Assembly: GCF_030122845.1 (NCBI RefSeq)
Contig: NZ_CP126084.1
Span: 1,860,001 to 1,924,000 of the forward strand
DNA length: 64,000 nt
Reading direction: 5' to 3'
Source: Paenibacillus woosongensis
Lineage (GTDB): Bacteria; Bacillota; Bacilli; Paenibacillales; Paenibacillaceae
This document shows, piece by piece, positions 8,263 to 52,199 of the stretch. The position numbers and the translations under genes were made by a program. The notes below the pieces were generated by a model. It ran no database searches. It was not told the DNA's origin and was given only the letters and a program-made list of their open reading frames with translations. Within the stretch, counting starts at the first letter, position 1. Every line of letters begins with the position of its first letter.

Positions 8263-9482
8263 ACGTTAGCGCCCTCCTTGGCTGCGGCTGCTTTAGCCCA
8301 TTCGATCACTTCGGTGATGGAAGCTGCTGATCTGCTGCCTTTGATTAGCCGTTTGCCGATTTCCAAGGCTGTAACCTTGGCCTGACGGCGGGAGAACTCG
8401 TCTTCGATCGTGTCAATGTCCGCCACATGGGATAATCCGACGATTCGGCGGATTACCTTACAGCCCGCAAATCCGATAGCGTCCTTGCGGATTTGGTCGA
8501 TGTAGAGATCCTGATAGCCAGGTGTCTTGGACATGATATCTATGCCGTCCGCATCCCAAAACTTGCGGAAGTTAAGTTCGAAATGATTCCACACGCCGAC
8601 AATTGTCGTGAGAAGCCAAGAACGGCGCTCCTGCAATACTTCGTCATTGCTGCTCCAGCCGGGCTGCGCTGCATAATTCAGCAATAGATTGGCGATGACT
8701 GCGCCGATATCGAAGCCAATTGGACCGTAATAGGCGAATTCAGGGTCAATGACCTTGGTTGCTTCGGGCGTTATGAAGATGCTGCCGGTATGCAGATCAC
8801 CATGCAGCAGCGCTTGACCATGCGTAAGAAACTTCTCTCTGAGCAGGGCTACTTCAAGGTGCAGAGCATGATCCTGCCACAGCTTCTCGGCTTCTGCCCG
8901 AATGTCTTCGGTAAAGCTGTTATTTGCGGCATCCCTGTATGGATCCTCGAAGATCAAGTCCTCGGTAATTTTGCATAAATCCGGATTGATGAACCTTGCG
9001 GATTGAAGCTTCTTTTCCTGTTGGTTCATGCCGAGGTCGGAGGTGTAGAACAGGGTTGTGGCAATAAATCGGCCGATATGCTCCGCAAAACGGTCATAGG
9101 TGTTTCCGGCGATCAGACCTTGACGCATAATCGTATAACCGGACAAGTCTTCCATAACCGTGATGGCCAGCTCGTCATCGCCTCCATAAATCGCCGGAAC
9201 GAGATCCGGGCACAACCGGTGCTGAATTTCCAGCGCATTGCGTTCGATGCGGGCTCGATCAAGGCTGAGCGGCCAGGATTCGCCAACCACCTTGGCATAA
9301 GGCAGGGCTTGTTTTATAATCAGGCTCTTGTTTTGCTGCGGGTCGGCAACTCTGAATACCAGATTCAAGTTGCCATCACCGATTTCCTCGCAGGACAGCG
9401 CGGCATCAGCCGCGAAAAAGCCAGGAATCGACTTGGCATAGGCAGTGGCATCTTCTAGGGAAAAGGGACGGTATGAGGACAT
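8259..9482 (-). CDS. mtnK: S-methyl-5-thioribose kinase
   Basis: This 407-aa protein has the choline-kinase/APH fold. It phosphorylates methylthioribose with ATP, the step before MtnA. Motifs are [11 protein letters not shown] (nucleotide loop), [12 protein letters not shown] (catalytic loop, HGD) and [15 protein letters not shown] (the DFG-equivalent metal site). The start has GGAGGTG upstream on the minus strand. It is the first gene of mtnK-mtnA. Bacillus homologues sit behind an S-box (SAM) riboswitch, but I could not find S-box sequence in the leader, so control may differ here. Confidence 0.95.
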
Positions 9483-9551
9483 GGTAAAGCACCTCCAGAT
9501 GATAAAAATATGTTTTTAAATTGTTTCTATATTTAATTATAGAAAATATCA

Positions 9552-9566
9552 TTAAACTTAGTTTAA
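9552..9566. promoter_or_regulatory. 15-bp 7-1-7 palindrome between mtnK and dps
   Basis: TTAAACT-T-AGTTTAA is a perfect inverted repeat in the divergent mtnK/dps intergenic region, about 70 bases upstream of mtnK. The geometry is that of a small dimeric repressor site. Function is not shown. Confidence 0.35.
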
Positions 9567-9629
9567 AGTTAGTATATCGGAAAAGTGTGATATTATCATT
9601 CTTTTTTTCAAAGAGGTGTGATTTAAATT

Positions 9630-9655
9630 GTTTCGCCTAAGCCAGGGTCGGGTAT
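9630..9655 (+). promoter_or_regulatory. Sigma-B-like promoter for dps
   Basis: GTTTCG, a 14-bp spacer, then GGGTAT matches the general stress sigma-B pattern (GTTT.. / GGGTAT). It lies about 110 bases upstream of the dps start. Bacillus subtilis dps is a sigma-B gene, which fits, but whether this organism has sigma-B cannot be told from the window. Confidence 0.45.
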
Positions 9656-9769
9656 GATACTTATATGGTACCTGGAAGCCTGGTATGTAACTTACATTCA
9701 CTTCAGGCATGATTTGCATGCTCTAGGGTGAATATATAAACAATCACGAAAGAAATGAGGGACTGTATT

Positions 9770-10243
9770 ATGGCTAAAGCTGATTCCAAGTCTGCAAGCA
9801 AGGCGAGCAAAACAAGTTTGGAGCAGGTTTTAAACGAGCAGGTCGCCAACCTGAACGTGCTGTATGTTAAGATACACAACTATCATTGGTATGTGAAGGG
9901 GGAAAACTTCTTCACGCTGCATGTCAAATTCGAGGAGCTCTACAATGACGTTACGGAAAAAATGGACGCCATAGCCGAGCGCCTGCTGACGATTAAAGGT
10001 AGCCCGGCTGCAACAATGAAGGAGTATCTGGAAATTGCCACGATTCAAGAGGCTTCCGGCAAGGAAGACGAACGCGCCATGGTTCAGGCACTGGTTGAGG
10101 ACTTCGCTACCTTGTCCGAGTCGTTCCAGGAAGGCATTGAACTGGCCGACAAAGAAGGCGATGAAGCGACAGCTGATTTGCTGACCGGCTTCAAAGGCGA
10201 TTTGGAGAAGCAGATGTGGATGCTTCGCACGTATTTAGGATAA
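9770..10243 (+). CDS. dps: Dps/ferritin-like DNA-binding stress protein
   Basis: This 157-aa Dps protein has a Lys/Ser-rich N-terminal tail (MAKADSKSASKASK), as in Dps proteins that bind DNA. The ferroxidase signature HNYHWYVKGENFFTLHVKFE is followed about two helices later by EKMDAIAERLLTIKG, which supplies the second-subunit iron ligands. It protects DNA and stores iron, usually in stationary phase. The ATG at 9770 is used rather than that at 9755 because of the upstream AAATGAGGG. It is monocistronic with its own terminator. Confidence 0.95.
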   Translation: MAKADSKSASKASKTSLEQVLNEQVANLNVLYVKIHNYHWYVKGENFFTLHVKFEELYNDVTEKMDAIAERLLTIKGSPAATMKEYLEIATIQEASGKEDERAMVQALVEDFATLSESFQEGIELADKEGDEATADLLTGFKGDLEKQMWMLRTYLG

Positions 10244-10263
10244 TTGCACGATGGGGTACAAAG

Positions 10264-10294
10264 CAGGGCTGGATCGATTAGCGATCCAGCCCTG
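10264..10294 (+). terminator. Terminator after dps
   Basis: CAGGGCTGGATCG / CGATCCAGCCCTG, a 13-bp perfect stem, is followed by TTTGATTTG. Confidence 0.85.
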
Positions 10295-10369
10295 TTTGAT
10301 TTGATCGTCCAACAGGCATTTCCCCTGCGAATATACAGCCCATAATGATCTAAAAATTGAAAAATAAGG

Positions 10370-10397
10370 TTGACAGATTATGAAGAAAAGGTAGTAT
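10370..10397 (+). promoter_or_regulatory. Sigma-A promoter for the PhzF-like gene
   Basis: TTGACA, 16-bp spacer, TAGTAT, about 45 bases upstream of the start codon. Confidence 0.6.
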
Positions 10398-10441
10398 TGA
10401 ACTACGATTGTTTGTAGCGTGAAAGGAGAGGGCGGATCGAT

Positions 10442-11287
10442 ATGGCGCAGGATGTCCATACATACAGGGTATTTACTGATGATGCCAGCCAGGGAAATGC
10501 GGCTGCCGTTATCGAGTACGATGGCTGGTCGGATGCAGAACTACTTGAATTAGCGAGGCGTTCCGGTGCGCCTGTTACGGTGTTCGTGCAGTTTGGCAGC
10601 GCCCAGGAGCGGGACGCTGTCTTGCGGTATTTTTCCACTGAGAAGGAAATGACGTTTTGCGGACACGGGACACTGGCAGCCGGCGCCTATATGATGCAGC
10701 AATGCCAATTTGATCGTTTGCAAGTCATTACCGGGTCGGGGACGCCTATCGTCATAACAAAATCTCCCCAGGGCCATTATTATTTTAAGACTGAACGGGT
10801 ACGCCGTCTGGATATGATACCGGACCGGATCGAAATAGCTCATATGCTTGGGGTGGAACCTGGCGTTATTATTTCTGATCATGCGCCTTTTGGTGCCGCC
10901 AGCATCGGCTCTCCCAAATTGCTGGTTCCGCTTTGTCATTTAACGGATCTGGATGCAATGGCCCCTAAGTTCGAGGAGATCAAGGAATGGAGCCGGAAGC
11001 ACCGTGTAAACGGAGTCTATGCATATGCCTTTCAGCAAACGAAAGAGGAGGCGAAGGACGCGGGGGCTCTGTATGTCCACGCCCGCGGCTTTAATCCGTT
11101 GTTTGGCATTCCGGAGGATGCTGCCACTGGCGTAGCAGCCGGGGCGCTTGGCGATCTTTTGTTTCAGGAGGGAGGGCCGTCAAAATATGTTTTCGTACAG
11201 GGCAAGCATGTTGGCGCCGAAAGCGAAATCCGCGTCATGGTCGCGGCCGAAAGTGTGGAAATTGGCGGCTCTGTGCTGAAATTATAG
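10442..11287 (+). CDS. PhzF family isomerase/epimerase-like protein
   Basis: This 281-aa protein has the two-lobed PhzF/diaminopimelate-epimerase fold. Visible signatures are DDASQGNAAAVI near the N terminus, MTFCGHGTLAAGAYMM (first-lobe GHGT motif) and DAATGVAAGALGDLL (second-lobe motif). PhzF itself isomerises a phenazine intermediate. Most bacterial homologues are of unknown substrate and no phenazine genes are nearby. The gene has its own promoter and a terminator before the next cluster, so it is probably not part of that cluster despite the closeness. Confidence 0.88.
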   Translation: MAQDVHTYRVFTDDASQGNAAAVIEYDGWSDAELLELARRSGAPVTVFVQFGSAQERDAVLRYFSTEKEMTFCGHGTLAAGAYMMQQCQFDRLQVITGSGTPIVITKSPQGHYYFKTERVRRLDMIPDRIEIAHMLGVEPGVIISDHAPFGAASIGSPKLLVPLCHLTDLDAMAPKFEEIKEWSRKHRVNGVYAYAFQQTKEEAKDAGALYVHARGFNPLFGIPEDAATGVAAGALGDLLFQEGGPSKYVFVQGKHVGAESEIRVMVAAESVEIGGSVLKL

Positions 11288-11322
11288 TATAACGGCTTAC
11301 TAGGTGATAGTTAGCGATATAT

Positions 11323-11376
11323 AAAAACAGTGTTTTCGAAAGGGAAATCTTTATTCTTTCAAAAGCACTGTTTTTC
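11323..11376 (+). terminator. Terminator between PhzF-like gene and the biosynthetic cluster
   Basis: AAAAACAGTG ... CACTGTTTTT outer stem, with an inner TTTCGAAAG/CTTTCAAAA pairing, followed by TTTTTC. Confidence 0.7.
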
Positions 11377-11516
11377 TTTGTTTAATTCTATTTTTATCTA
11401 TAAATATATAAATTAGATTTTAAATAATTCAAAAAATAACAACATTTTACAATAAAATATGATATATTAAATACAAGAAATAGATAATATGGCTAAAAAT
11501 GGATCGGGGGAAACAG

Positions 11517-12854
11517 ATGAATACGATTCTTCCAACGTCAAATGAAGTAGACGATATGTTTAGCCAAGCAGGACAAGTTCTAGCCGCCAGGCCAAGAATC
11601 ATCGTATCGCCGCAAATCCGGAGCGCCGCAAAGATGAAGCAGGACGCCGCTGCGACGGAGAAGCTGCTGGATCTGATAGAGTTAACGATCGAGCGATTGT
11701 TCGGCGGGGATATGGTGCGGGTAGCCCGCTGGCTAGGCTATTCGGATACGGTGCTGCGCTGGGTTCAAGCCAGTCCGCGCCTGGACAGACGGCATGTACT
11801 GGTCCGCAGTGACATATATGACGATCACGGTGAGCCCAAATTGCTGGAATTAAACTTGGGAAGCAGTGTAGGCGGGCTGCTGGAAGCTTCCTTTCATTCA
11901 ATCCTGCTTAAGCTGCCATCGGTTCGTGAGGCCGTTCGCAAGCAGGAGGCTGAATGGTTGCAGACGCTAAGCGAATGGGCCTGGCATGTGGTAGGGTCGT
12001 TTCTCTCGCATCACGCAAATCCGCTGATGGCTTTTGTCGAAAGTGACTTCTCGATGCCCGCCATGCAGGCGACGCTGAAGCACATCGCTGACCGGTTTCA
12101 TGAGATCACCAAGACACGGGTAACGGTATGCACGCCGAAGGAGCTTGAGCGCCGGAAGGATGGACTTTATGCCAGGGGCGAGAAGGTAGATGTCATTTAC
12201 CGACTATTCGAACTGGAGGATTTGCAGCGGTCCCCCTCTGAGTTTGAACATATACTTGACGCGCTGGAGGATCGCCTCGTAGAAATGCCGATGGGTTTCT
12301 CCTGCCGGATTGCCGGCAGCAAGGCATTGTTTGCCCTTCTGTCCGATCCTGCATATCAGACAGGCCTTTCAGTGGAAGACACCAAATGGGTCAGACGGCA
12401 TATACCCGAAACCAGACTGCTAACCACTAGGAATAGAGCTTATGCTCTGCGCGAGAGGGAACGATTGCTCATCAAACCTGCAGACGGATACGGTGGGGCA
12501 GGCATCATCTGCGGCTGGGAGGCGTCTGAAGCCGAGTGGGGCACCCGTATTGATTCCTATTTGTCCTCGGCATCTCAGGTAGCAAGGGCCGTCGTCCAGG
12601 AAAGAATTGCGCCTTCTACCGGTCCCGTTGTTATAGCGAAGCCGGGAGGTGCCGTTTATCAGGAACAGGCTAGTTTTTTATGGGGATGCTATCTGTTTGG
12701 AAACCGGCATATCGGGCATGTTTTACGGACAAAAGAGATCAAGGAGAGTTCTGTGATCAATTACGCGAACGGAGCAGCGATAGGTCCGGTCTTTTACAGC
12801 GAAGAGAAGGAAAGGACGGATGCCCGTGCAATCGATACTGATTTTATGCCGTGA
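11517..12854 (+). CDS. Circularly permuted ATP-grasp ligase (cluster gene 1)
   Basis: This 445-aa protein resembles the circularly permuted ATP-grasp enzymes (glutathionylspermidine-synthase-like). The substrate half comes first (LLELNLGSSVGG, about residues 100-115). The nucleotide half is near the end: LLIKPADGYGGAGI (P-loop-like Lys, about 320) and VVQERI (about 361). The ATG at 11517 has TCGGGGG upstream. Such enzymes join a carboxylate to an amine through an acyl phosphate. It is the first gene of a tight ten-gene unit and overlaps the next gene by 35 nt. The cluster also holds a diverged paralogue (17599-19038). The exact substrate is unknown. Confidence 0.75.
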   Translation: MNTILPTSNEVDDMFSQAGQVLAARPRIIVSPQIRSAAKMKQDAAATEKLLDLIELTIERLFGGDMVRVARWLGYSDTVLRWVQASPRLDRRHVLVRSDIYDDHGEPKLLELNLGSSVGGLLEASFHSILLKLPSVREAVRKQEAEWLQTLSEWAWHVVGSFLSHHANPLMAFVESDFSMPAMQATLKHIADRFHEITKTRVTVCTPKELERRKDGLYARGEKVDVIYRLFELEDLQRSPSEFEHILDALEDRLVEMPMGFSCRIAGSKALFALLSDPAYQTGLSVEDTKWVRRHIPETRLLTTRNRAYALRERERLLIKPADGYGGAGIICGWEASEAEWGTRIDSYLSSASQVARAVVQERIAPSTGPVVIAKPGGAVYQEQASFLWGCYLFGNRHIGHVLRTKEIKESSVINYANGAAIGPVFYSEEKERTDARAIDTDFMP

Positions 12855-13698
12855 AGAAACGCCGGATGTCACTGAACTGGCCGCCGCTTTAAATGGAAGG
12901 GGACTTGATACGATTTGCGCAAGGCCCTATGAAATTACGGTAGACATGGATATGTCAGGCACCCGCTTTAAATTCAATGACCAGACGCTGAATCTGGCTT
13001 GCGTGCTGGGCTGGGTGTCGCTGTCTCAGCGCGAGTATGGGCTGTGGCTGCTGAAGGCTTTTGAAATATGCGGGATCCCGGTAATTAACGGCTCAGATGT
13101 TCTCGGCAGCGGCCAAAATAAGTTCCTGAACTCGGTTTTGCTTACAGTGCATCAAATTCCGCATATCCCCACCCGGTTTATCGGCTCTTGTGAGCAATTG
13201 GAGGAAACAGCGGAAATATTAGAATTTCCCCTCGTACTGAAACCTGTAATTGGTGCAAAAGGCGAGCAGGTGGTGCGAGTTGATGATATAAACAGTCTGA
13301 GAAACCTGGCCCCTTATTACCTGCGGGATCATAAGGCGCTATACGTCCAGGCGTGCCTGGACAAGCCGGGCAGGGATATTCGTGTCAGAGTTGTGGATTA
13401 CAGAGCAGAATTTGCTTTTTTTCGCTATGCAGTCGATGGGGGCTTTTTGACGAATTTGTCCAGCGGGGGAACCTGGGAGGCTTGTCCTCTTACACCGAGG
13501 ATGATCGAGCTGGCCGAATTGTGTTCCCGCATATTTCAGGCACCCGTGGCAGGTGTCGATTTACTGGAAGTGGACGATGACGATTATGTTGTCATTGAAG
13601 TGAACACCACGCCCGCGATTACTTGGCCGCACATGGAAACCGTCAGACATGTGGCTGATTTAATCGAACAGAGGGTGCACTTATCATTCGGGCGCTAG
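12820..13698 (+). CDS. RimK-type ATP-grasp ligase (cluster gene 2)
   Basis: This 292-aa protein is of the RimK/LysX kind. Features are GSGQNKFLNSVLL (pre-grasp), FPLVLKPVIGAKGEQVV (ATP lysine and flexible loop), LYVQACLDKPGRDIRVRVV and, near the C terminus, GVDLLE...YVVIEVNTTPAI with the Mg-binding E-x-N. RimK and LysX relatives add amino acids to a carboxylate, often building amino-acid chains or lysine on a carrier. The gene starts inside gene 1 and probably depends on translational coupling. No carrier protein (LysW-like) is visible nearby. Confidence 0.85.
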   Translation: MPVQSILILCREETPDVTELAAALNGRGLDTICARPYEITVDMDMSGTRFKFNDQTLNLACVLGWVSLSQREYGLWLLKAFEICGIPVINGSDVLGSGQNKFLNSVLLTVHQIPHIPTRFIGSCEQLEETAEILEFPLVLKPVIGAKGEQVVRVDDINSLRNLAPYYLRDHKALYVQACLDKPGRDIRVRVVDYRAEFAFFRYAVDGGFLTNLSSGGTWEACPLTPRMIELAELCSRIFQAPVAGVDLLEVDDDDYVVIEVNTTPAITWPHMETVRHVADLIEQRVHLSFGR

Positions 13699-13753
13699 GT
13701 CCGGGATGGTAGTTCATCATAAATTTAAAATTTCGTGATGAGGAGTGATTGAA

Positions 13754-14494
13754 GTGGTACTAAGTCCGGATCAGTTTGTGGAGAAGCTCAAAACTATTGT
13801 CGAGGAAAACAAGAAAATTACCCATCCGCTTTATCAGATTATTATGAAAGGGGAAGCAACACCGGAGCTTTTGAAAAACTTTGTGTTGCACCGCTATCAT
13901 ATCAAAAGCTTCTGGACCCGCAATATTTCGGCGATTCATTCAAAAACTCCAGATGTCGAAGTACGCAAGGAGCTCGCCGAGAACATTTACGAGGAGGAGA
14001 CCGGCCAGCTTACTGGAACGATGCGGCATCTTGAACTGTTCTTCAAAATCGGCGAGCAATTCGGCCTGACGTGGGAGGACATTGAAAACTGCGATATTCT
14101 CCCCGAATCCGAGGCAGTCATTGAATGGAACAATAAGGTTTGCGGGCCGGATCATCATTTGGTAGAGGCTGTAGCTGCATTGATCGTATATATGGAAGGA
14201 CAGCCGCCAGTTACTTGGGATGGACGAACGATGAATGAAGCGATGAAGCATTTTTATAACCTGAACCAGGAAGGCGTGCAGTATTTTACGATCCACAGCT
14301 CCAATGATATGGAGGTGGAGGAGGATCATGCGGAAGCCGGATACAATATTCTCCGCAAATATGCAATAACCGAGGAGCTGCAGGAGAAGGCAATCGCAGC
14401 CCTGTATAAATCGATTGAAGTACGTATGAAGCATTTTAGTGCGATCCTTCGCGTAACCGGAATTGAAGCGGAAGCAGAGCCCGTTCTTGGATAG
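13754..14494 (+). CDS. Haem-oxygenase-like diiron oxidase (cluster gene 3)
   Basis: This is a 246-aa all-helical protein of the PqqC/TenA-like, haem-oxygenase-like diiron oxidase (HDO) superfamily. The likely iron ligands are visible in order: a Glu in ENIYEEETG, His of MRHLELF, Glu of VYMEGQ, then YFTIHSSNDMEVEEDH supplying His, Asp/Glu and His. Known HDOs cleave C-C bonds (BesC), hydroxylate nitrogen (SznF) or decarboxylate (UndA). GTG at 13754 is preferred to GTG at 13745 because AGGAG is then spaced correctly. In this cluster it most likely tailors an amino acid; reaction type cannot be read from sequence. Confidence 0.75.
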   Translation: MVLSPDQFVEKLKTIVEENKKITHPLYQIIMKGEATPELLKNFVLHRYHIKSFWTRNISAIHSKTPDVEVRKELAENIYEEETGQLTGTMRHLELFFKIGEQFGLTWEDIENCDILPESEAVIEWNNKVCGPDHHLVEAVAALIVYMEGQPPVTWDGRTMNEAMKHFYNLNQEGVQYFTIHSSNDMEVEEDHAEAGYNILRKYAITEELQEKAIAALYKSIEVRMKHFSAILRVTGIEAEAEPVLG

Positions 14495-14505
14495 ACCGTT
14501 CCAGA

Positions 14506-14548
14506 CAGTTAATAGGAAGTCCTTGCGATAAGGGTTTCCTATTAACTG
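14506..14548 (+). terminator. Intra-cluster hairpin (attenuator or processing site)
   Basis: CAGTTAATAGGAA / TTCCTATTAACTG forms a 13-bp perfect stem with a 17-nt loop that has extra pairing. There is no T run, only GATTTATC. It lies between cluster genes 3 and 4 and could reduce read-through or protect the upstream mRNA. Confidence 0.5.
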
Positions 14549-14587
14549 ATTTATCTAAGGAATCCCTCATATACGAAGGAGGATTTT

Positions 14588-15607
14588 ATGGCCCAGCTGA
14601 TAGATGTAACCTTGCGAGACGGCGGATACGTTAACGGTTTTGATTTTTCGTTAGAGGCTGCAAAACACATTGTAAGCGGGCTGCAAAAGGCGGGTGTGGA
14701 CTGGATCGAGATCGGCTACAGGAACGGCCCGGCCAAGGGAACGGCGGGACTGGGCATGACGGCAGCTACGAATGATGATTATATAGCGGCATTAAAGGAG
14801 TTTGCGCCGCTCGCCAACCTGGTCGTCATGCTTCATCCGCACAACATTCAAGCCGAAGATCTTCGGTCTATGAAATCGCTGGGCGTGTCGCTCGTGCGCG
14901 TATGCCTTAGGCAGGACCTCTTAGAAGAGGGGCTGGATACGATTCGGGAATGCACAAGGATAGGGCTGTCTACCTCGGCGAATTTTGTGCGAATCACTTA
15001 TTTTACGAGCCAAGAAATAAAGCAAATGACGCTGAAAGCGGAGGCAGCCGGAGCAGACATCGTCTACTTTGCCGATTCCAATGGGCACTTGGTACCAGAT
15101 CAGGTGAAATCGATTGCCGATGTCCTGAAGTCCACGTTGACGATTCCGGTTGGCTTCCATGCGCACAACAACCTGTCCATGGGTCTGGCCAATACGGTAG
15201 CAGCGCTGGAGTGTGGCGTGGATTGGGTAGACAGCTCCTTGCGCGGCATGGGGCGAAGCGGCGGGAACCTGGCTACAGAAGTGTTTGCCGCCTATATGGA
15301 GCGCTGCTTCGGAGCCGCCCGCTATAAGCTGATTGAAATGATGGACACTGCGGAATTTGTACAGGAAGAAATCCTTCTGTCTGAACAATATATGACACCG
15401 ATGACCAAAGATATTTTGTTTGGCATGATGAACTTCTCGACAGATTTAAAACAGTTGATTATGGATGCAGCTCTACAGCACAACGTGTACTGGAAGGAGC
15501 TTGCATATGGGCTCGGCACATACCCCCCGGATAAAATCACGGGCGAGGATATTGCTTTTATTGCTTCCCGAATCAAAAAAAACAATCGGGAGCTGCAGCA
15601 TCTGTGA
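14588..15607 (+). CDS. DRE-TIM metallolyase / HMGL-like aldolase (cluster gene 4)
   Basis: This 339-aa TIM-barrel protein starts DVTLRDGGYVNGF, the DRE-TIM signature, and carries the metal-binding GFHAHNNLSMGLAN (H-x-H about residues 191-193) and a VDSSLRGMGRSGGN segment. It resembles 4-hydroxy-2-oxovalerate aldolase and its relatives, which make or break C-C bonds next to a 2-oxo acid. Length fits the DmpG type, but no partner dehydrogenase (DmpF) is present, so a biosynthetic condensation or retro-aldol step in this cluster is more likely than catechol degradation. The ribosome site is GAAGGAGG. Confidence 0.8.
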   Translation: MAQLIDVTLRDGGYVNGFDFSLEAAKHIVSGLQKAGVDWIEIGYRNGPAKGTAGLGMTAATNDDYIAALKEFAPLANLVVMLHPHNIQAEDLRSMKSLGVSLVRVCLRQDLLEEGLDTIRECTRIGLSTSANFVRITYFTSQEIKQMTLKAEAAGADIVYFADSNGHLVPDQVKSIADVLKSTLTIPVGFHAHNNLSMGLANTVAALECGVDWVDSSLRGMGRSGGNLATEVFAAYMERCFGAARYKLIEMMDTAEFVQEEILLSEQYMTPMTKDILFGMMNFSTDLKQLIMDAALQHNVYWKELAYGLGTYPPDKITGEDIAFIASRIKKNNRELQHL

Positions 15608-15618
15608 GGTGATTCCAG

Positions 15619-16671
15619 GTGAGTAGCCTCTTGAAGCATATGGTTGTCAGCGGCCAGCCGCTCCAGCGGGGAGCGCAATACGGGGAGGAGTTCCGGCGAG
15701 AAATCAGAGATTTTTTGGATGATAATATCGCACGGATCAACAGCGTCAGATGCCAGCCATTAACCTTGAAAGAAGCGTTAAGCATGACCGACAGCTACAT
15801 TCCGCATATTGAAGCTTGCACTCCCGAACTCGCCGAGGAGATCAAAGGGTTGGCGCAAGGGGCCGGAATCAGCTACCGGGAGGGCATGCTGCTTCAGCTT
15901 CGGCGTGAGATTATCGCTGCTGGGCTTGAATGCACTGCATTTGCCTGCTTTAACCAAGAAGGCCGTGCCGTCATTGCGCAAAATATCGATTTGGCGGGCC
16001 AGTTAACGGACTTGGGAATTATACTGGAAGTCCGCACGCCTGAGAATGCTCCTGATTTGCTGATGTATACGCATGTAGGACTAATCGGATATTTGGGCAT
16101 CAACAGCTATGGACTTGGCGTTGGGTTGAATATGGTGCTTAGTTCAGGATGGCGTGCCGGTGTCCCCCCGTATTTGCTAATCCGCCACCTGCTTCATCAG
16201 CGAACGCTGGAGCGATGCTTACTTGAAATCGGGCGAATTCGCCGAGCATCCTCCAGAAACTTGCTGATGACGGACGGCATTCGGCTGATCAATGTAGAAA
16301 TGACCGTGGATAAAGCGCGTTTAATCGAAAATGACCTTCTGGTGCATACCAACCATTATTTGCATAAGGATTTCATAAACTGTGACCTGGTTAAGCCCGG
16401 CACCTCAACGTATCCCCGTCTTGAACGGACCCATGAAAGGCTGCGGCACTACGGCAGAAGGCCTTCGGTGAAGCAGATGGAGGAACTGCTCGGCTACCAC
16501 GAAAATGGTGCGGGAAGCCTCTGTGTTCATCAAGACGGGGACCCGCGCAAAGTCGCCACCGTCGCTTCTGTAATTATGGAGCCGTCCGAAGGGAGGCTGA
16601 GGGCCTGCAAAGGCTATCCTTGCACAGAGCCATTCCATGACTACCGGCTGGAAAGGAGTTGTATGGCATGA
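15619..16671 (+). CDS. C45 peptidase / acyl-CoA:6-APA acyltransferase-like (cluster gene 5)
   Basis: This 350-aa protein fits the family of isopenicillin N acyltransferase and C45 peptidases, Ntn hydrolases that self-cleave to expose an N-terminal Cys. Candidate nucleophile is C105 in GLECTAFAC; downstream NIDLAGQ and GLIGYLGINSYGLGVGLN are family-like. GTG at 15619 follows GAGGTG. The family acylates or deacylates amino groups. In this cluster it could cap, tailor or deprotect a ligated product, or act as self-protection. Autocleavage is inferred, not seen. It overlaps the next gene in an ATGA. Confidence 0.75.
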   Translation: MSSLLKHMVVSGQPLQRGAQYGEEFRREIRDFLDDNIARINSVRCQPLTLKEALSMTDSYIPHIEACTPELAEEIKGLAQGAGISYREGMLLQLRREIIAAGLECTAFACFNQEGRAVIAQNIDLAGQLTDLGIILEVRTPENAPDLLMYTHVGLIGYLGINSYGLGVGLNMVLSSGWRAGVPPYLLIRHLLHQRTLERCLLEIGRIRRASSRNLLMTDGIRLINVEMTVDKARLIENDLLVHTNHYLHKDFINCDLVKPGTSTYPRLERTHERLRHYGRRPSVKQMEELLGYHENGAGSLCVHQDGDPRKVATVASVIMEPSEGRLRACKGYPCTEPFHDYRLERSCMA

Positions 16672-17618
16672 AGGAATGTTTCATTCAATTAAATGATAGG
16701 GCCGTTCCCTATGAAGAGGCGACGATCCATGTAGGATCGGCAGCGATGAAATACGGAGCGTCCGTATTTGAAGGGATCCGCGGCTATTGGGATGCTGATC
16801 GGCATCGAATGCACTTATTTTCCTTATCCGAGCATGTGGACCGTCTTTTGGATTCCATGAAAATTATGGGGATGGAGCATTCCTGGAATAAAAAGCGGGT
16901 GATTGGGAATATCCGCAATATTATCCTCGTCAATCAATTGCAGGAGGACTGTTATGTCCGCGTCGCCGCTTCCGTGGAAGCAGACGGTTCATTGGAGGCG
17001 AGAGGGCCCGTTCTGCTCAGCGTGGCTGCTTTTCCGCAGCAGCGCAAGCCGCATTCTGATCGGGGCATTCATATATCGGTCTCTTCCTGGCAGCGTATTT
17101 CCGACCAAATGATGCCGCCAAGGATCAAGTGCATCGCCAACTACCAGAACGGCCGCTTGGCGATGCTGCAGGCCAAATCGGACGGCTATGACAATACTCT
17201 TCTGCTGAATCAGCACGGCAAAATCGCGGAAGCTCCGACAGCGGCTTTTTTTATCGTAAAAAACGGCAGGCTGATCACCCCTTCCGTCACGTCCGGCATA
17301 CTGGAAAGCATCACCCGCAGGCATATCCTGAGTTGGGCCAAGGAAATGGGCCTGACTGCCGAAGAGCGAGAGCTCGATCGCACGGAGTGTTATTTGGCCG
17401 ATGAAGCCTTCCTCTGCGGTACGGGGGCGGAGATTCTCCCTGTAATTAGTGTTGACCGCTACAAGCTTGGCGGCGGGAGTATCGGGCCGGTCACGGCGCT
17501 GCTGATGAATAAATACTTCAATACGGCATATGCCAAAGAAGAAGGCCTGGAACCCAATTTGGAGGATATTGTTACTTATCCGAAGGAGGAGATCGAAAAT
17601 GCAGCGCTTCCTATATGA
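16668..17618 (+). CDS. Class IV PLP aminotransferase, IlvE-like (cluster gene 6)
   Basis: A 316-aa fold-type IV aminotransferase. The N terminus has KYGASVFEGIRGYW; the PLP lysine is K154 in PRIKCIANYQNG, followed by GYDNTLLLNQHGKIAEAPT and GTGAEILPV. The canonical AEGSxxN phosphate-cup segment reads AEAPTAA, an unusual variant. Branched-chain aminotransferases, D-amino acid transaminases and aminodeoxychorismate lyases share this fold. Here it probably aminates a 2-oxo acid made by the cluster. ATG at 16668 (not the TTG at 16659) has AAAGGAG upstream. It overlaps gene 7 by 20 nt. Confidence 0.88.
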   Translation: MKECFIQLNDRAVPYEEATIHVGSAAMKYGASVFEGIRGYWDADRHRMHLFSLSEHVDRLLDSMKIMGMEHSWNKKRVIGNIRNIILVNQLQEDCYVRVAASVEADGSLEARGPVLLSVAAFPQQRKPHSDRGIHISVSSWQRISDQMMPPRIKCIANYQNGRLAMLQAKSDGYDNTLLLNQHGKIAEAPTAAFFIVKNGRLITPSVTSGILESITRRHILSWAKEMGLTAEERELDRTECYLADEAFLCGTGAEILPVISVDRYKLGGGSIGPVTALLMNKYFNTAYAKEEGLEPNLEDIVTYPKEEIENAALPI

Positions 17619-19038
17619 ACAGGATTATCGCCGGATGGTTGCCAGCTCCGGGAATCGGCTGGACGAGGAGATCAAGGAGCTGGAAGGCCGGCTGGAGAAC
17701 GATGGTTATGTGTACCGGAACAAGCCGTTTCAGCTTTACCCGAGAGTCGTCATTCTTTCTTCCTCCGACCGCGAATGGATCCGAAGAGAAGCCGAGCAGC
17801 TGATCGACATACTGGAGAAGGTGATCCGTCTTTATGAAGAAGATCCGGCCACCAGGCAGTATTTTATGCTGGATGAAGCCGCTTCCCGCCTGGTACGGAT
17901 AGATCCTGGATATCAGCGCAAAATCCGTATTTCCCGGTTCGATACCTATCTTGTGCCGGGTAATGAGAGCTTTAAGGTTTTGGAAAACAATACAGATTGC
18001 CCGGCCGGTGTCATCTTTACAGGGCGCGTCAATAAGGTGCTCAGGCAAATTCCGTCACTCTCCACCTATTTGGAGAATATCCCTCCGCTATACGAAGAAG
18101 GTATCCACAAGCCCGATGCTTTTATCAATGAATTAGTCTCTGTCTTCGCCGAGTTCTCTCCCGGTTCAAGGCTTCGCAGCATGGCGATCCTTCAGCTGGA
18201 AAACCGGGTCAGCCTAGAGGTGAAGGAGATGGTTGAACTTCTCCGCAAATCAGGAGTCGAAGCCGTCGTCACGGATCCCCGGCAGCTTTCTTATCGGGAA
18301 GGCAAGCTTTATGCCGGAAATCAGCGCATAGAGCTCATCTGGAATAAAATAAACACCGCCGATTTTATCCCTCTTCTTGACGATTCCGCAGCGCTGTCCG
18401 ACCTGATATGGGCATGCGACGACCTGGCCGTCTGCCATGTCAATTCTTTTCAAGCCCGCTTCATTACAGAGAGCAAGCTATGCTTGGCCTATCTTTCGGA
18501 TCCAGCCTTCCGCAAGCATTTCACGGATGAAGAATGCAAAATACTCGATAAGCATATCCCCTGGGCACGCAAGCTATCGGCCGTGTCCCCTGAAGATCAT
18601 GAAGGGCAGGGTATGCGCAAGCTGTTCAAGCTTCGCCGGAAGAAACTGGTGTTAAAGACCGCCTATGACATTAGAGGTGAAGGGGTCGTCATTGGTCTGT
18701 CCACCTCGCAGGAGCAATGGGAAGAACTGATCGATCAATGCTGGAACAAACCTTTTATCGTACAGGAACTGGTAGCCGCACCGGAAATCCCGGTTCCTAC
18801 CGGCCCGGATCACTCCCTGGTCCACAAAAAATTCAGCGCGGATCTGTTCATGTTTGGCGGATCATTTCAAGGCTTTGGCTCGAAATTGAGCGATGAGCTG
18901 AAGGTGAACGTCTTTCAGGGAGGGAGCAAGCAGGCGATCTTCTCCGTGGATAACAGCGCTGCTGAATCGCGAGGGAGCGAGCAGACAGCTTGCACCTCCT
19001 GCCGCAACTGTACAAATACCGGCGAACGGTGCTCTTGA
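17599..19038 (+). CDS. Circularly permuted ATP-grasp ligase with Cys-rich tail (cluster gene 7)
   Basis: This 479-aa paralogue of cluster gene 1 shares the order of motifs: KVLENNTDCPAG in the substrate half, a HIPWARKLS segment matching gene 1's HIPETRLLT, then LVLKTAYDIRGEGV (about 352) and FIVQELV (about 388). The glycine loop YGGAG of gene 1 is replaced by IRGEG. After the conserved end there is a tail with Cys at 465, 468, 471 and 478 (C-x2-C-x2-C-x6-C), absent from gene 1, which could bind a metal. ATG at 17599 has AAGGAGG upstream and lies inside gene 6. Substrate unknown. Confidence 0.75.
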   Translation: MQRFLYEQDYRRMVASSGNRLDEEIKELEGRLENDGYVYRNKPFQLYPRVVILSSSDREWIRREAEQLIDILEKVIRLYEEDPATRQYFMLDEAASRLVRIDPGYQRKIRISRFDTYLVPGNESFKVLENNTDCPAGVIFTGRVNKVLRQIPSLSTYLENIPPLYEEGIHKPDAFINELVSVFAEFSPGSRLRSMAILQLENRVSLEVKEMVELLRKSGVEAVVTDPRQLSYREGKLYAGNQRIELIWNKINTADFIPLLDDSAALSDLIWACDDLAVCHVNSFQARFITESKLCLAYLSDPAFRKHFTDEECKILDKHIPWARKLSAVSPEDHEGQGMRKLFKLRRKKLVLKTAYDIRGEGVVIGLSTSQEQWEELIDQCWNKPFIVQELVAAPEIPVPTGPDHSLVHKKFSADLFMFGGSFQGFGSKLSDELKVNVFQGGSKQAIFSVDNSAAESRGSEQTACTSCRNCTNTGERCS

Positions 19039-19091
19039 TCGTTATAAATCTAGTATTTTGGCTGCAAAAAAATCATTAGGAGGGATTGTTG

Positions 19092-19760
19092 ATGAGTGCA
19101 TCCCATTATCCGGGATCTGAAGCCTTCAAAGGAATACCGACGGCATGTATTTCCGATGCCCTGGACACCTTCGGGATCAACGGGGGGCTGGAGGGACTGA
19201 AGGCTTTGGGCCCCGGCATGGCTCTTGCGGGACCTGCGTATACGCTGCAGTATGAACCGGTCCCGGAAGGAGAGGCGGCTCAGGCGGGCGAGTTTATTGA
19301 CGAGGTGCCGGAGGGACACGTCGTTGTGATTGCTAATGGCGGCAGGCAGTACTGTACTGTGTGGGGAGATCTGCTGACGTATGCTGCGAAGATCAGGGGG
19401 CTGCGAGGAACTGTTATCGACGGCTGCTGCCGGGATGCAACAGCGATCCTGCAAACTGGTTATCCGTTATTTTCGCTCGGAAGCTATATGAAATCAGGGA
19501 AGAACAGGGTCAGACTTGCAGCCAGGCAGGTACCGGTAACAATTGGCAGTACTGTCGTCTGCCCTGGCGATATTGTAGCTGCGGATGACTCTGGCGTGAT
19601 CGTGATTCCTAAGGATGTGGCGGAGCAGGCATACCGCCGGGTCAAGGAAATTGAAGCGATGGAGGAGCGGATTCTTCTTGATTTGCAAAACGGCATGCCG
19701 ATGAAAGAGGCGAGAATCAAGCATCGCTATAATCAGTACGCGCTGCGGGTCAACGTTTAA
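19092..19760 (+). CDS. RraA-like aldolase/decarboxylase (cluster gene 8)
   Basis: A 222-aa RraA/HMG-aldolase family protein. The signature GTVIDGCCRDATA contains the substrate and metal-binding R114-D115, and DIVAADDSGVIVIP is typical of the C-terminal half. True members with this motif are metal-dependent class II aldolases or oxaloacetate decarboxylases; RraA itself is an RNase E inhibitor, which is unlikely in this setting. ATG at 19092 follows AGGAGGG. With gene 4 it gives the cluster two different C-C bond enzymes acting on 2-oxo acids. Confidence 0.83.
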   Translation: MSASHYPGSEAFKGIPTACISDALDTFGINGGLEGLKALGPGMALAGPAYTLQYEPVPEGEAAQAGEFIDEVPEGHVVVIANGGRQYCTVWGDLLTYAAKIRGLRGTVIDGCCRDATAILQTGYPLFSLGSYMKSGKNRVRLAARQVPVTIGSTVVCPGDIVAADDSGVIVIPKDVAEQAYRRVKEIEAMEERILLDLQNGMPMKEARIKHRYNQYALRVNV

Positions 19761-19784
19761 CTTTAGGTCGGAGGGAGCTGCGCC

Positions 19785-20975
19785 ATGGGACAAATCGTAT
19801 TTCTGAACCGGAGCAAATCATTTCCGTTCAAAAGCTGGATTCCTGAAATCACTGAGAAGCTGACGCTGTTTACACAGCTTGATATACCCGGAGCGGACGG
19901 ATATGATTTTGTATTCAAAAAAGAAGCCTTGGACAAGGATGCGCTCATGGAATGGGAATTGATCGAGCTAAGCGAACGGCACCCTGTAAAAGCTGTCGTA
20001 TGTCACTCGGAATATGACCTCCTCCGTGCCGCCAAATTGCGCGAGTACTTCTGTTTGCCCGGACAAAATGCAGAAAGCGCCCTCGCCTACCGCAACAAGG
20101 TGATCATGAAGGACTGGGCCAGGAAGGCGGGCATCGAAGTTGCTCATTACCTGGAGATCACGACCCCTGCCGACATTGCCGCATTTATTCGCCAATATGG
20201 ATATCCGGTGGTTATCAAGCCGGTCGACGGGGGCGGCTCCCGCCATACCGCCGTACTGCGGGACAGCGGGGAATGCCGGTCATTTCTGGAAAAAGGCGTA
20301 CCTCAAGGAATGATGATCGAATCGTTTGTTGAAGGCGAAATGTATCATGTCGACGGATTAATGCACCAGGGGGAAATGCTGTTCTCCAGTGTCTCCCGTT
20401 ATATGAACGGATGCCTTTCCTTTCATTCGGGCACGAGCCTTGGCAGCGTCATATTGAACTCGGATTCCTCCCGCATCCAAAGGCTGCGTCGCGAAGCGGA
20501 ACGTACGCTGCATGCGCTGCCTGCCGCTCCGGTGATCGCTTTTCATGCGGAGTACTTCTTAACGGAGGACAATCGCATTCTGCTATGTGAGATTGCGAGC
20601 CGGACGGGCGGCGCTCGCGTAGTGGACGCCAACGAAGCGGCGTTCGGCATCCATTTGAACCGGGAGTGGATTCGTCTGCAATGCGGTTTGGACGCCGATA
20701 TAGGAATTACTAGCGGAAATACCGGACGCACGGCAGGTTGGCTGATCGTTCCGCCGGGACAGGGGGTCCTTCGCTCGATTCCGGAAACTACGCCATTTGA
20801 ATGGGTGGTCAGTTATGTACCTGCTTTGCAGAAGGGCGAGCAAATGAGAGGAGCAGTTTCGAGCGTAGACCATATGGCGAGCTTCGTCGTGGAAGGCGCT
20901 GATGAACGGGAGGTTGAGGCGCGCATCACGGAACTGGATCAATGGTTCAGAGATCGAATTCAGGTTGAAGCATGA
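19785..20975 (+). CDS. ATP-grasp amino-acid ligase, BacD-like (cluster gene 9)
   Basis: This 396-aa protein has the usual (non-permuted) ATP-grasp layout: GQNAESALAYRNKVIMKDW pre-ATP helix, YPVVIKPVDGGGSRHT (ATP lysine and glycine loop), MMIESFVEGEMYHVDG and LLCEIASRTGGARV for Mg binding. The pattern is that of L-amino-acid ligases such as BacD and carboxylate-amine ligases. In BacD-type enzymes the Mg motif is usually E-x-N-x-R; here the Asn position is Ala or Ser, a variation to note. It starts 24 nt after gene 8 with GGAGGGAG. It could form the final dipeptide-type bond before export. Confidence 0.83.
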   Translation: MGQIVFLNRSKSFPFKSWIPEITEKLTLFTQLDIPGADGYDFVFKKEALDKDALMEWELIELSERHPVKAVVCHSEYDLLRAAKLREYFCLPGQNAESALAYRNKVIMKDWARKAGIEVAHYLEITTPADIAAFIRQYGYPVVIKPVDGGGSRHTAVLRDSGECRSFLEKGVPQGMMIESFVEGEMYHVDGLMHQGEMLFSSVSRYMNGCLSFHSGTSLGSVILNSDSSRIQRLRREAERTLHALPAAPVIAFHAEYFLTEDNRILLCEIASRTGGARVVDANEAAFGIHLNREWIRLQCGLDADIGITSGNTGRTAGWLIVPPGQGVLRSIPETTPFEWVVSYVPALQKGEQMRGAVSSVDHMASFVVEGADEREVEARITELDQWFRDRIQVEA

Positions 20976-20988
20976 AGGGTGTGCACGT

Positions 20989-22224
20989 ATGAGCCAGAAT
21001 AAGCCATTGTTCTCCGCGCCGTTTGTTATTTATTTGGCAGTGAATACCATGTTTTTCATGGGGATAGGAATTCAGGGAATTGCTATTCCTTGGCTGCTCC
21101 TCGAACAGTCCGGAGGAGCCCTTTCGGTGGGAATCATGCTCTGTATCCGGGCGCTGCCCGGTATTTTTCTGGTGGGGCTGGCCGGAGACTGGGCTGACCG
21201 TTACGACCGGCGCAGGATCTGTTTTTATATGAATCTGCTGCAGGCTGTGCCGATGCTGATTATATCCTATTTAATTGGACAAGATGCTGTGGGATATGTG
21301 TTCGTTTATGCCATTACGCTGTTTCTATCGGTCGGAAACACGTTTTTTGTGCCCGCCATCCGGGCGTATATGCAGGGAATGATTGAAGCTCCTTATTTCA
21401 TGAAGGCAAATTCCCTTCATGAAACTACATCCCAGGCGGGGAATATTATTGGCACCGGACTGGGCGGCATCCTGGTTGCTCTTGTGAACGCGGCCAATAC
21501 GCTGGCTATCGGGGCAGGCGCCTTCTTGTTGTCCGCTGTGTTAGTCATTTGCATGAAAGGGCAGCAGCATGTTGACCAGCATGCTTCACGTGAACGCCCC
21601 GGCCGAAGGAATCTTTCCATAACGGCTAGGTATATCTGGGAGCGCAGAGCGCTGTTAACCGCTATTTTGTTTATATTGATTCCCTCACTCGTGGTACAGG
21701 TCAATAATATTCTTATCGGGGCATATGTCAAAGATATCCTTCATCTTGGCGCGGATAGCTTCAGCCTGGTCAGTATCATGTATTCAGCAGGAGCGATGCT
21801 GTCCGGGGTACTCCTGGTATCTGCAAAAAAGATCGGTACGGGACGCAAAACAATTTTTGCCGCCTTGCTGCTGCTGTCCGCCGCGCAGGGATGGTTCGGG
21901 AATACATATCATATTTCGGCTTCGGCTTCGGCCGTATTTTTAGTAGGTTTTTTTGTGGTGATGTCGCGAAGCTGGATCAACACCAAGATTATGGAGGAAA
22001 CGGAGGACGTGTTCGGCGGGCGAATTCAGAGCGTTGTAAATATGATGAACTCCCTCATGATTTTATTGGCTGGCCTCCTCATAGGCGTATCCGCCAGTGT
22101 ATTGAGCTACCAGGCCATATATCTTGCGGTGGCGGGAATCGGCGCAGCGGCCGCGCTGCTGTCCTGGCATGGCTTCAAGGATGCAAATCAAGCCAAGGAA
22201 CAAAGTCAATCAGGTCTCCACTGA
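20989..22224 (+). CDS. MFS transporter, probable product exporter (cluster gene 10)
   Basis: This 411-aa protein has about 12 hydrophobic segments and the MFS loop GDWADRYDRRRICF between helices 2 and 3. It resembles the Mef/DHA3 group of drug and metabolite exporters. The ATG at 20989 is used; the longer frame overlaps gene 9. It is the last gene before a strong terminator, a usual place for an exporter or self-resistance gene in a biosynthetic cluster. Substrate is unknown. Confidence 0.87.
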   Translation: MSQNKPLFSAPFVIYLAVNTMFFMGIGIQGIAIPWLLLEQSGGALSVGIMLCIRALPGIFLVGLAGDWADRYDRRRICFYMNLLQAVPMLIISYLIGQDAVGYVFVYAITLFLSVGNTFFVPAIRAYMQGMIEAPYFMKANSLHETTSQAGNIIGTGLGGILVALVNAANTLAIGAGAFLLSAVLVICMKGQQHVDQHASRERPGRRNLSITARYIWERRALLTAILFILIPSLVVQVNNILIGAYVKDILHLGADSFSLVSIMYSAGAMLSGVLLVSAKKIGTGRKTIFAALLLLSAAQGWFGNTYHISASASAVFLVGFFVVMSRSWINTKIMEETEDVFGGRIQSVVNMMNSLMILLAGLLIGVSASVLSYQAIYLAVAGIGAAAALLSWHGFKDANQAKEQSQSGLH

Positions 22225-22250
22225 ATTTATATATTCGAATGATAAATAAG

Positions 22251-22304
22251 AACCTCTTACTTGCGGGCAGGCTAGAATTAAGGCGCCCGTGTAAGAGGTT
22301 TTTT
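22251..22304 (+). terminator. Strong terminator closing the biosynthetic cluster
   Basis: AACCTCTTAC ... GTAAGAGGTT with an inner GCGGGC/GCCCG pairing, followed by TTTTTT. Confidence 0.9.
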
Positions 22305-22460
22305 AGTCTTCATTTTTGTCGAAAAGGAATCACTGTGTTGGGGTTATGTCGAATTTTGAATGCTGCATTGAATTTGGCAGGCTGAGGATTTGGGCAGGAG
22401 ATTAGCCTTCTATCCAGCCGTGGCACGTTGCTTAAGCATCCGAAGTAGGTTAGAATAAAA
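22305..22460. other. Non-coding stretch between cluster and suf promoter
   Basis: The whole gap from 22225 to 22592 holds the terminator, the operator cluster and the suf promoter. In this middle part I see no gene and no strong structure, only two copies of TGTCGAA about 28 bases apart. Confidence 0.5.
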
Positions 22461-22508
22461 TGAGAATCAGTGAGAATCACTTAGAATAATTCTAAAGTGA
22501 GAATTATT
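22461..22508. promoter_or_regulatory. Clustered Fur/PerR-type operator repeats upstream of suf
   Basis: TTAGAATAATTCTAA (22481-22495) is a perfect 7-1-7 inverted repeat of Fur/PerR type. It is flanked by TGAGAATCA twice on the left (22461, 22471) and TGAGAATTA on the right (from 22498), giving overlapping half-sites. Control by iron (Fur) or peroxide (PerR) is inferred; both are plausible for Fe-S assembly. Confidence 0.65.
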
Positions 22509-22512
22509 GTGC

Positions 22513-22518
22513 TATAAT
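22513..22518 (+). promoter_or_regulatory. Likely -10 box of the suf promoter
   Basis: TATAAT in GCTATAATGC lies about 75 bases before the sufC start. The -35 region falls inside the operator repeats and is weak, so a repressor bound there would block transcription. Confidence 0.5.
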
Positions 22519-22592
22519 GCAGGGAGCAAAGGGAGGCGTCCCTTTATAATATACGTTATGATTTTAACGACTTAATGGAGGGAGCAGTAAAC

Positions 22593-23375
22593 ATGGCTAC
22601 ACATTTCGTTATTGAAGGACTTAAAGCGACAATCGAGGACAAAGAGATTCTCAAGGGAATCGACATTGAAATAAAGGGTGGGGAAGTCCACGCCATCATG
22701 GGACCGAACGGTACGGGGAAAAGTACGCTCGCTTCCGCGCTGATGGGTCATCCCAAATATGAAGTTACCGACGGCAAGGTGCTGCTTGACGGAGAAGATG
22801 TGCTGGAAATGGAAGTGGATGAGCGCGCTCGCGCAGGCCTGTTCCTTGCCATGCAATATCCGAGTGAAATCAGCGGTGTGACCAACTCGGACTTCCTGCG
22901 GAGCGCGATCAACGCCCGCCGTGGTGAAGGCAACGAGGTATCCCTTATTAAATTTATTCGTCAAATGGAGAGCAAAATGAAGGAGCTTGAAATGAATCCT
23001 GAATTTGCGCACCGTTACTTGAATGAAGGCTTCTCCGGCGGTGAGAAGAAGCGGAACGAAATTTTGCAAATGATGCTGCTTGACCCGAAAATCGTTATTC
23101 TTGACGAGGTCGACTCCGGACTTGACATTGACGCATTGCGCATTGTTGCCGAGGGTGTAAACTCCATGCGCAGCGAAGATCGCGGATTCTTGATCATCAC
23201 TCACTACCAGCGTCTTCTGGATTACATCAAGCCAGATTTCGTCCATGTCATGATGCAAGGGCGCATTGTGAAATCCGGCGGCCCTGAGCTGGCAGAGCGC
23301 CTGGAGAAGGACGGATACGATTGGATTAAAGATGAGCTTGGCATCGTTGACGAGACAGTGGGAGAGCAAGTTTAA
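22593..23375 (+). CDS. sufC: Fe-S cluster assembly ATPase SufC
   Basis: A 260-aa cytoplasmic ABC-type ATPase. Walker A is GPNGTGKST, the signature is [10 protein letters not shown] and Walker [13 protein letters not shown], all as in SufC. It powers the SufBCD scaffold that builds Fe-S clusters and has no membrane partner. ATG at 22593 has GGAGGGAG upstream. It is first in a sufCDSUB unit, the standard Firmicute order, with 24 nt before sufD. Confidence 0.97.
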
Positions 23376-23399
23376 CGGAAGGAGGAAGGAGGAGCTAAG

Positions 23400-25911
<2,512 letters not shown>

Positions 25912-45498: not shown

Positions 45499-45548
45499 TA
45501 GAGTAGGGTGGAAACTAGGTATTTAATTTAGGATGATATTTTCTGAAG

Positions 45549-45590
45549 AACAAAGAACCTTCGTAAATTTGCGGAGGGCTTTGTTTTTTT
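45549..45590 (+). terminator. Terminator of the glycosyltransferase operon
   Basis: AACAAAG ... CTTTGTT outer stem with inner CCTTCG/CGGAGG pairing and a T run. Confidence 0.8.
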
Positions 45591-45709
45591 GTCGTACTAT
45601 TAAAATGCTTGTATTCATTTTCATGATATGATGCCGATATATAATTTAAGTTCAAAAATGTATTTTGAGGAAAAAAAAGGGTGTTTGAATTTGAGACAGG
45701 TGATAAAAT

Positions 45710-46416: not shown

Positions 46417-46441
46417 TTCATTCGAATGAACTAAAATCTCT
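46406..46441. terminator. 36-bp perfect palindrome, bidirectional terminator
   Basis: AGAGATTTTAGTTCATTC is followed at once by its exact inverse complement, with T/A-rich flanks on both sides. It lies between convergent genes (46416 and 46464) and would stop transcription both ways. Confidence 0.8.
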
Positions 46442-46463
46442 ATTTTTATAACTAATAACTATA

Positions 46464-52184: not shown

Positions 52185-52199
52185 GCTGATTCGCAAAAG

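Follow-up and report, generated by a model that had tools for sequence, protein, structure and literature searches.

What would a bacterium make with a run of co-directional genes in which stand-alone ATP-grasp ligases stand beside an oxidase, carbon-carbon bond enzymes, an aminotransferase and an exporter? The question is raised by a window of 64,000 nucleotides of Paenibacillus woosongensis (NZ_CP126084.1, 1,860,001-1,924,000; all positions below are window positions), in which an earlier note had described a ten-gene cluster for an ATP-grasp-made, peptide-like product. Open reading frame (ORF) analysis and family searches confirmed ten same-strand ORFs at 11517..22224, and the family names agreed with those already given. 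By sequence comparison the biosynthetic unit likely comprises eleven genes, these ten plus an upstream PhzF-family gene at 10442-11287. We read this block as a pathway independent of non-ribosomal peptide synthetases (NRPS) that makes and exports a small peptide with an unusual amino acid, a reading that we would expect to hold about half the time. The genes and the structured elements between them are as follows.

10442..11287, + strand: PhzF-family protein (281 amino acids; PF02567 127.6 bits and TIGR00654 122 bits, both past their cut-offs, 76.2 for the latter)
11323..11375, + strand: terminator-like hairpin between PhzF and g1 (-19.7 kcal/mol, z -6.6)
11517..12854, + strand: g1, remote circularly permuted ATP-grasp ligase (445 amino acids; ORF open from 11499)
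12820..13698, + strand: g2, RimK-like ATP-grasp ligase (292 amino acids; TIGR00768 150.3 bits, cut-off 143.4)
13745..14494, + strand: g3, haem-oxygenase-like diiron oxidase (HDO; PF14518 93.9 bits)
14506..14548, + strand: 20-pair hairpin between g3 and g4 (-23.9 kcal/mol, z -5.5)
14588..15607, + strand: g4, HMGL-like DRE-TIM protein of the TLRDGGYxN type (PF00682 117.9 bits)
15619..16671, + strand: g5, C45-family autoproteolytic acyltransferase/hydrolase (NF040521 215.4 bits, cut-off 85)
16659..17618, + strand: g6, class IV aminotransferase (AT4), IlvE-like (TIGR01122 246.6 bits, cut-off 245.55)
17599..19038, + strand: g7, circularly permuted ATP-grasp ligase of glutathione-synthetase fold (479 amino acids; PF14403 35.9 bits, cut-off 32)
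19086..19760, + strand: g8, RraA-like aldolase/decarboxylase (PF03737 128.4 bits)
19785..20975, + strand: g9, L-amino-acid-ligase-like ATP-grasp (solved relative 4wd3, E 1.4e-22)
20989..22224, + strand: g10, MFS transporter (411 amino acids; PF07690 95.8 bits)
22248..22303, + strand: intrinsic terminator 3' of g10 (-29.5 kcal/mol, z -5.1, T run)

That these genes work together is indicated by their recurrence. A profile scan for the HDO across the named genomes returned 69 loci. Nineteen of them reached E 3e-47 or better, with identities of 42-100% (10 Actinomycetota, 3 Bacillota, 3 Cyanobacteriota, 2 Pseudomonadota and 1 Chloroflexota). In the DNA available for these 19 loci HMGL was found in 19, AT4 and g7 in 18 each and RraA in 17, and all five genes (HDO included) in 16; the missing AT4 and g7 of locus L014 may be explained by the little DNA available beyond its HDO and HMGL genes. 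Conserved co-occurrence, which the earlier note had proposed as a check, was thus borne out in five phyla, with the gene set kept as a unit and not scattered. None of the other 50 HDO loci (E 1e-15 or weaker) had HMGL, AT4, g7 or RraA by tblastn and profile search (0/50). All five core genes were present at L100, a locus from the Saccharothrix family-level sample. Occurrence is sparse: 4/295 genomes in a sample of the window's family (HDO at E 1e-30), 2/398 in one of its class, 1/292 in one of the Nostoc phylum and 2/150 in one of the Saccharothrix family (counts that include the genome at the centre of each sample). In L024 an ORF matching both RraA and ATP-grasp was not scored as a genuine fusion, since its RraA match shifts frame within the ORF. 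Plasmid carriage was rejected upon finding no HDO match at 1e-20 in a PLSDB copy, as was a role in anti-phage defence (0/10 proteins matched PADLOC models at 1e-5).

The PhzF gene falls outside the extent first given for the unit, whose ten genes are real, and most likely belongs to it too. It was recovered at 70-100% identity from all four genus genomes with the HDO (the window's own included); among the remaining 36 genomes of the 40 searched for PhzF in the genus, one had a match at 51%, at a locus where all ten partner genes are missing from 18 kb, and three had matches at 29-32%. All eleven genes recur in Aneurinibacillus (L008), with PhzF between g7 and g8; in Nostoc PhzF adjoins g7, and the metagenomic protein P0107 is a natural g7-PhzF fusion. 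Furthermore, in the window, in P. woosongensis L006 and in P. ihumii L007 the eleven genes are flanked by dps and sufC, and in three HDO-free genomes of the genus (L087, L088 and L089, those with the SufC closest to the window's among the genomes compared) dps and sufC are adjacent, with none of the eleven matched in 14 kb. Placement in Aneurinibacillus and Nostoc, co-occurrence within the genus, the P0107 fusion and the joint absence at this empty site led us to reject PhzF as an unrelated neighbour.

The same surroundings bear on a metallophore, for which PhzF would serve as a DapF-fold racemase and the MFS protein as exporter. Such a pairing of racemase and MFS exporter resembles the logic of staphylopine, and the dps and suf neighbours are iron-related; dps and sufC are, however, adjacent even without the block, and no nicotianamine-synthase-like or opine-dehydrogenase-like match was obtained among the eleven proteins, which leaves this explanation very improbable in our view.

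The assignment of g3 to the HDO superfamily draws on its family score, fold match and conserved residues. Glu83-85, His95, Glu151, His184, Glu192 and His195 are invariant in 28 aligned rows and constitute candidate metal ligands. Chlamydia CADD (1rcw, 8va9) is the nearest solved relative by both sequence and fold (predicted model with predicted local distance difference test, pLDDT, of 89.5; CtCADD 8va9 at a template-modelling score, TM, of 0.76). CADD sacrifices a Tyr and a Lys of its own: Tyr27 aligns with Tyr30 of g3 (invariant), and Lys152 is replaced by Met163. Since the sacrificial Lys is lost, with the Tyr kept, and the TIGR04305 score lies below the cut-off (92.9 bits, cut-off 200), a CADD-type 4-aminobenzoate synthase was rejected.

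The earlier count of four ATP-grasp ligases holds clearly for g2, g7 and g9, each of which passes a curated model or has a clear solved relative, and remotely for g1. The latter scored 23.5 bits against CP_ATPgrasp_2 (under the cut-off of 32) and had no relative better than E 0.74 among solved structures; comparison with the g7 family by hhalign (probability 99.7 across 375 columns) suggests an ATP-grasp protein by remote homology. g9 is of the same ATP-grasp type as the L-amino acid ligases (RizA, 4wd3; BacD; DdaF), but it scores far below the cut-offs of the BacD and DdaF models (19.7/850 and 30.8/840 bits). The predicted model of g7 (pLDDT 90.9) has 3n6x and the E-64 ligase Cp1B (9cjn) as nearest solved structures, matching the fold of Cp1B at E 3.1e-17 and TM 0.63 with 16% identity in the structural alignment; the ANL-type amide synthetase and Fe/2-oxoglutarate epoxidase families of the E-64 pathway, as given in PMC12568646, which also describes Cp1B, are unmatched by the eleven genes. 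At its C-terminus (18987-19035) g7 carries a Cys-rich tail (C-x2-C-x2-C, terminal Cys-Ser), kept in four Paenibacillus-type proteins (the window's own, P0101, P0102 and P0103) and absent from the other aligned g7 rows. Several stand-alone ATP-grasp ligases are thus found in one cluster (g2, g7, g9, and remotely g1), and Pfam revealed no NRPS domain in the eleven proteins.

An HDO together with stand-alone ATP-grasp ligases in one NRPS-independent cluster is what the block has in common with mangotoxin mbo (PMC13185094); the present block adds HMGL, RraA, AT4, C45 and PhzF. In that paper the mangotoxin HDO, MboA, has as its substrate a tripeptide that a pair of ATP-grasp ligases assembles, and the present block has four ligases. 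A similar order can be envisaged: the ligases would first make a short peptide whose side chain the HDO then desaturates or cleaves, with HMGL, RraA and AT4 only supplying one monomer. We regard this order as conceivable yet unlikely, for the HDO keeps company with HMGL in 19/19 loci but with the RimK-like g2 in few (L006-L008, L022), and the eleven genes hold no MboB-type reductase. Membership of the mangotoxin type itself was rejected, as neither an MboB-type flavin/Fe2S2 reductase nor an MboE-type deiminase occurs among the eleven proteins (the mbo proteins' own Pfam/NCBIfam matches were not run).

The remaining core enzymes point to the making of a carbon skeleton. Arg10, Asp11, Tyr14, His191 and His193 of g4 are invariant in 20 rows, Arg, Asp and His being residues typical of DRE-TIM enzymes. 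g6 passes the IlvE model narrowly, does not reach PRK06606 (266.9 bits, cut-off 279) and has Lys157 invariant in 19 rows. g8 attains the RraA family score, and the Arg-Asp pair of that family (Arg116, Asp117) is unchanged across 18 rows; g8 falls below all NCBIfam cut-offs for named RraA-like activities, and its solved relative 3k4i (E 8e-56) is uncharacterised. A relative of g4 was also encountered in 6/149 Pseudomonas genomes (query P0198, E 1e-60 or better), and the three loci read (L098, L099 and L101) all combine it with an RraA relative (45-48% identity to g8) and, in between, an isocitrate/isopropylmalate-type dehydrogenase (profile-tested in L098 and recognised from the N-terminal sequence in L099 and L101); no AT4, g7 or HDO matches were obtained in these loci. 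This independent pairing supports the action of HMGL and RraA in one carbon-skeleton sequence, and the position of the dehydrogenase leads to the hypothesis that in our block the HDO may fill its oxidative place. The Pseudomonas operon (L098 5783-8759, L099, L101) contains luciferase-like and nitronate monooxygenases as well.

Leucine-type chain extension (LeuA, LeuB, IlvE) likewise combines an HMGL-superfamily enzyme with an IlvE-like aminotransferase, and the Pseudomonas HMGL relative also adjoins a LeuB/isocitrate-dehydrogenase-type enzyme. The differences are that g4 scores far under the LeuA models (best 85.2 bits, cut-off 517) and that the eleven genes lack both the dehydrogenase and the isomerase of that route, with the HDO and RraA instead. 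A further precedent for HMGL with an aminotransferase is the nikkomycin aldolase.

Of the peripheral genes, g5 has Cys105, presumably the C45 nucleophile, kept in the five proteins compared, and belongs to the C45 family. C45 occurs in L006-L008 and L022, penicillin amidase in L013 and L020, M20 in L010, L011, L015-L018, L021 and L024 (that of L021 passing the DapE model), and M81 in L019 and L023, the families having been assigned on representatives. We therefore view the C45 enzyme as better read as one among several probably interchangeable amide hydrolases/acyltransferases, and the alternation of four unrelated hydrolases suggests a recurrent protect-and-release step. The Pseudomonas fluorescens PS862 locus (L022 8952-17338) holds HMGL, HDO, AT4, g7, MFS, a PIG-L-family enzyme, a RimK-like ligase and C45.

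In the Argonema cluster (L013 12912-16787) a glutamate-cysteine-ligase-like gene adjoins the penicillin amidase, a hint of a glutamyl protecting group. Together with the glutathione-synthetase-type relatives of g1 and g7, that gene could speak for a cofactor-like or thiol-like metabolite of the cell's own, made in the style of glutathione, rather than a secreted bioactive peptide. We find this doubtful: the distribution is patchy (as few as those four genomes in the family), the block includes an MFS gene, and amide hydrolases and transporters differ between loci.

The history of the core was examined by protein distances and trees, whose rows begin at the stop ahead of the ORF or at a fixed boundary, so that a few additional N-terminal residues may be included. 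For the five core proteins, distances are correlated with one another (rho 0.57-0.91, 0/999 permutations as high) in the 17 of 20 sets that have all five genes (window plus 16 loci). The trees (AT4 19 rows, g7 19, HMGL 20, HDO 19, RraA 17; L024 excluded from the HDO and RraA trees owing to broken reading frames) place the AT4 and g7 of Nostoc with four Firmicutes rows (100/100), and its RraA with two other cyanobacteria (100/100), as does, weakly, the HDO tree (81/49). The tree program flagged long branches, and within that limit the groupings are good though not conclusive evidence that AT4 and g7 travel as one module together with PhzF, their neighbour in Nostoc. HMGL, HDO and RraA have the look of one module, for the carbon skeleton, and AT4, g7 and PhzF that of a second. 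Such swapping of sub-modules across phyla hints at which enzymes catalyse adjacent steps.

As to the layout of the block, starts at 17599 (g7) and 20989 (g10) appear more likely than the longest-ORF starts at 17530 and 20902. With these revised starts 3/9 junctions overlap (g1/g2 by 35 bp, g5/g6 by 13 bp, g6/g7 by 20 bp) and the other six are gaps of 11-93 bp, so the description of the genes as mostly overlapping was overstated. The closing terminator that had been claimed is there; it was missed by a simple terminator scan and found by folding, and two Paenibacillus relatives conserve the sequence. The hairpin between g3 and g4 is conserved in P. woosongensis and P. ihumii, and is possibly an attenuator or processing site. 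No riboswitch or T-box that would name an amino acid emerged, positions 8000-24000 giving no Rfam match even with E values as weak as 1 admitted. Guanine-cytosine (GC) content is 0.49-0.53 over the block, as in its surroundings, with no island signal; elsewhere in the window it falls to 0.41-0.45 (44001-48000 and 52001-54000) against about 0.50. Upstream of sufC, at 22481-22495, lies a palindrome, TTAGAATAATTCTAA, the sole site in the window when up to 2 mismatches are allowed, which in our estimation resembles a PerR/Fur-type box.

Taking these observations together, an NRPS-independent ATP-grasp pathway is the best reading, which supports the interpretation of the earlier note in part, with PhzF added and the roles of C45 and the DRE-TIM protein changed. 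The product, its peptide or amide nature and the individual reactions are inferred from gene content, and so is its export by MFS. We reason that g4 and g8 would construct or shorten a 2-oxo acid through carbon-carbon bond chemistry, and that the HDO would carry out an O2-dependent oxidation or carbon-carbon cleavage of this acid or its amide. The IlvE-like g6 would convert the 2-oxo acid to an amino acid, which g7 may ligate to a partner acid or amino acid, the PhzF-fold enzyme possibly isomerising or epimerising the g7 product. Further residues or a protecting acyl group could then be attached by g1, g2 and g9, the C45 enzyme would remove or exchange the protecting group, and g10 would export the product. 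In the detail that we favour, the HDO would with O2 replace the beta-decarboxylating dehydrogenase seen beside the Pseudomonas HMGL and RraA relatives and in leucine biosynthesis. Carried to its end, this would make the block an O2-driven counterpart of leucine biosynthesis, in which HMGL joins, the HDO decarboxylates oxidatively in the role of LeuB, RraA trims and the IlvE-like enzyme aminates, ahead of ligation, PhzF isomerisation, unmasking and export, a scheme that we rate as improbable.

Several observations weigh against the pathway as we propose it. The HMGL family (PF00682) of the earlier DRE-TIM aldolase stands, and the catalytic His of 4-hydroxy-2-oxovalerate aldolases is absent from g4: the models for that activity gave scores below their cut-offs (165.1/286 and 182.8/229 bits), and the invariant Tyr14 stands where DmpG has its catalytic His, so that this activity was rejected and the reaction of g4 is not settled. 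RraA was not found in L015 and L022, where the profile matches fall on ATP-grasp genes and were taken as alignment artefacts, and none of C45, penicillin amidase, M20 or M81 was found in L009, L012 and L014; RraA and an amide hydrolase are therefore not needed everywhere. The Pseudomonas operon of HMGL, dehydrogenase and RraA may be catabolic. The correlation of distances fits joint inheritance, part of which may be host descent.

PhzF adds difficulties of its own. In Paenibacillus the terminator-like hairpin between PhzF and g1 suggests a separate PhzF transcript. PhzF lacks the usual catalytic Glu: where YddE has this residue the window protein has Val45 and that of L008 Ile (Val or Ile in 5/5 proteins). 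Among the 19 loci, PhzF was found in 4, an MR/MLE enzyme (racemase-like, enolase superfamily) in 4 and neither in 11, in the DNA examined. The MR/MLE gene adjoins g7 in L013, L019, L023 and L100 and lies a few genes off in L024, and tblastn found no PhzF in these five loci; the two MR/MLE proteins that were checked exceed the threshold of the OSBS/NSAR model TIGR01928 (300.7 and 248.1 bits against 200.65). L039 and L100 gave weak PhzF-profile matches of 88 and 37 bits, the latter indicating that PhzF and MR/MLE may not strictly exclude each other.

Among the open-access papers that literature searches listed, no title or abstract start describes this gene set, and no characterised pathway with it was found. 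At least 25 clusters with HDO and ATP-grasp genes were reported in 2026 in PMC13185094, and because the present family may be among them, priority cannot be claimed; in its main text the words aldolase, aminotransferase and Paenibacillus each occur 0 times. HDOs associated with stand-alone ligases have given unusual warheads, mangotoxin's alkyne being an example (PMC13185094). If our reading is right, the family adds to these an HDO working among carbon-skeleton enzymes, and the intact gene set in Paenibacillus makes its product and reactions testable. Should the O2-driven counterpart of leucine biosynthesis prove true, it would bring a new HDO reaction and a cross-phylum family of antimetabolites.

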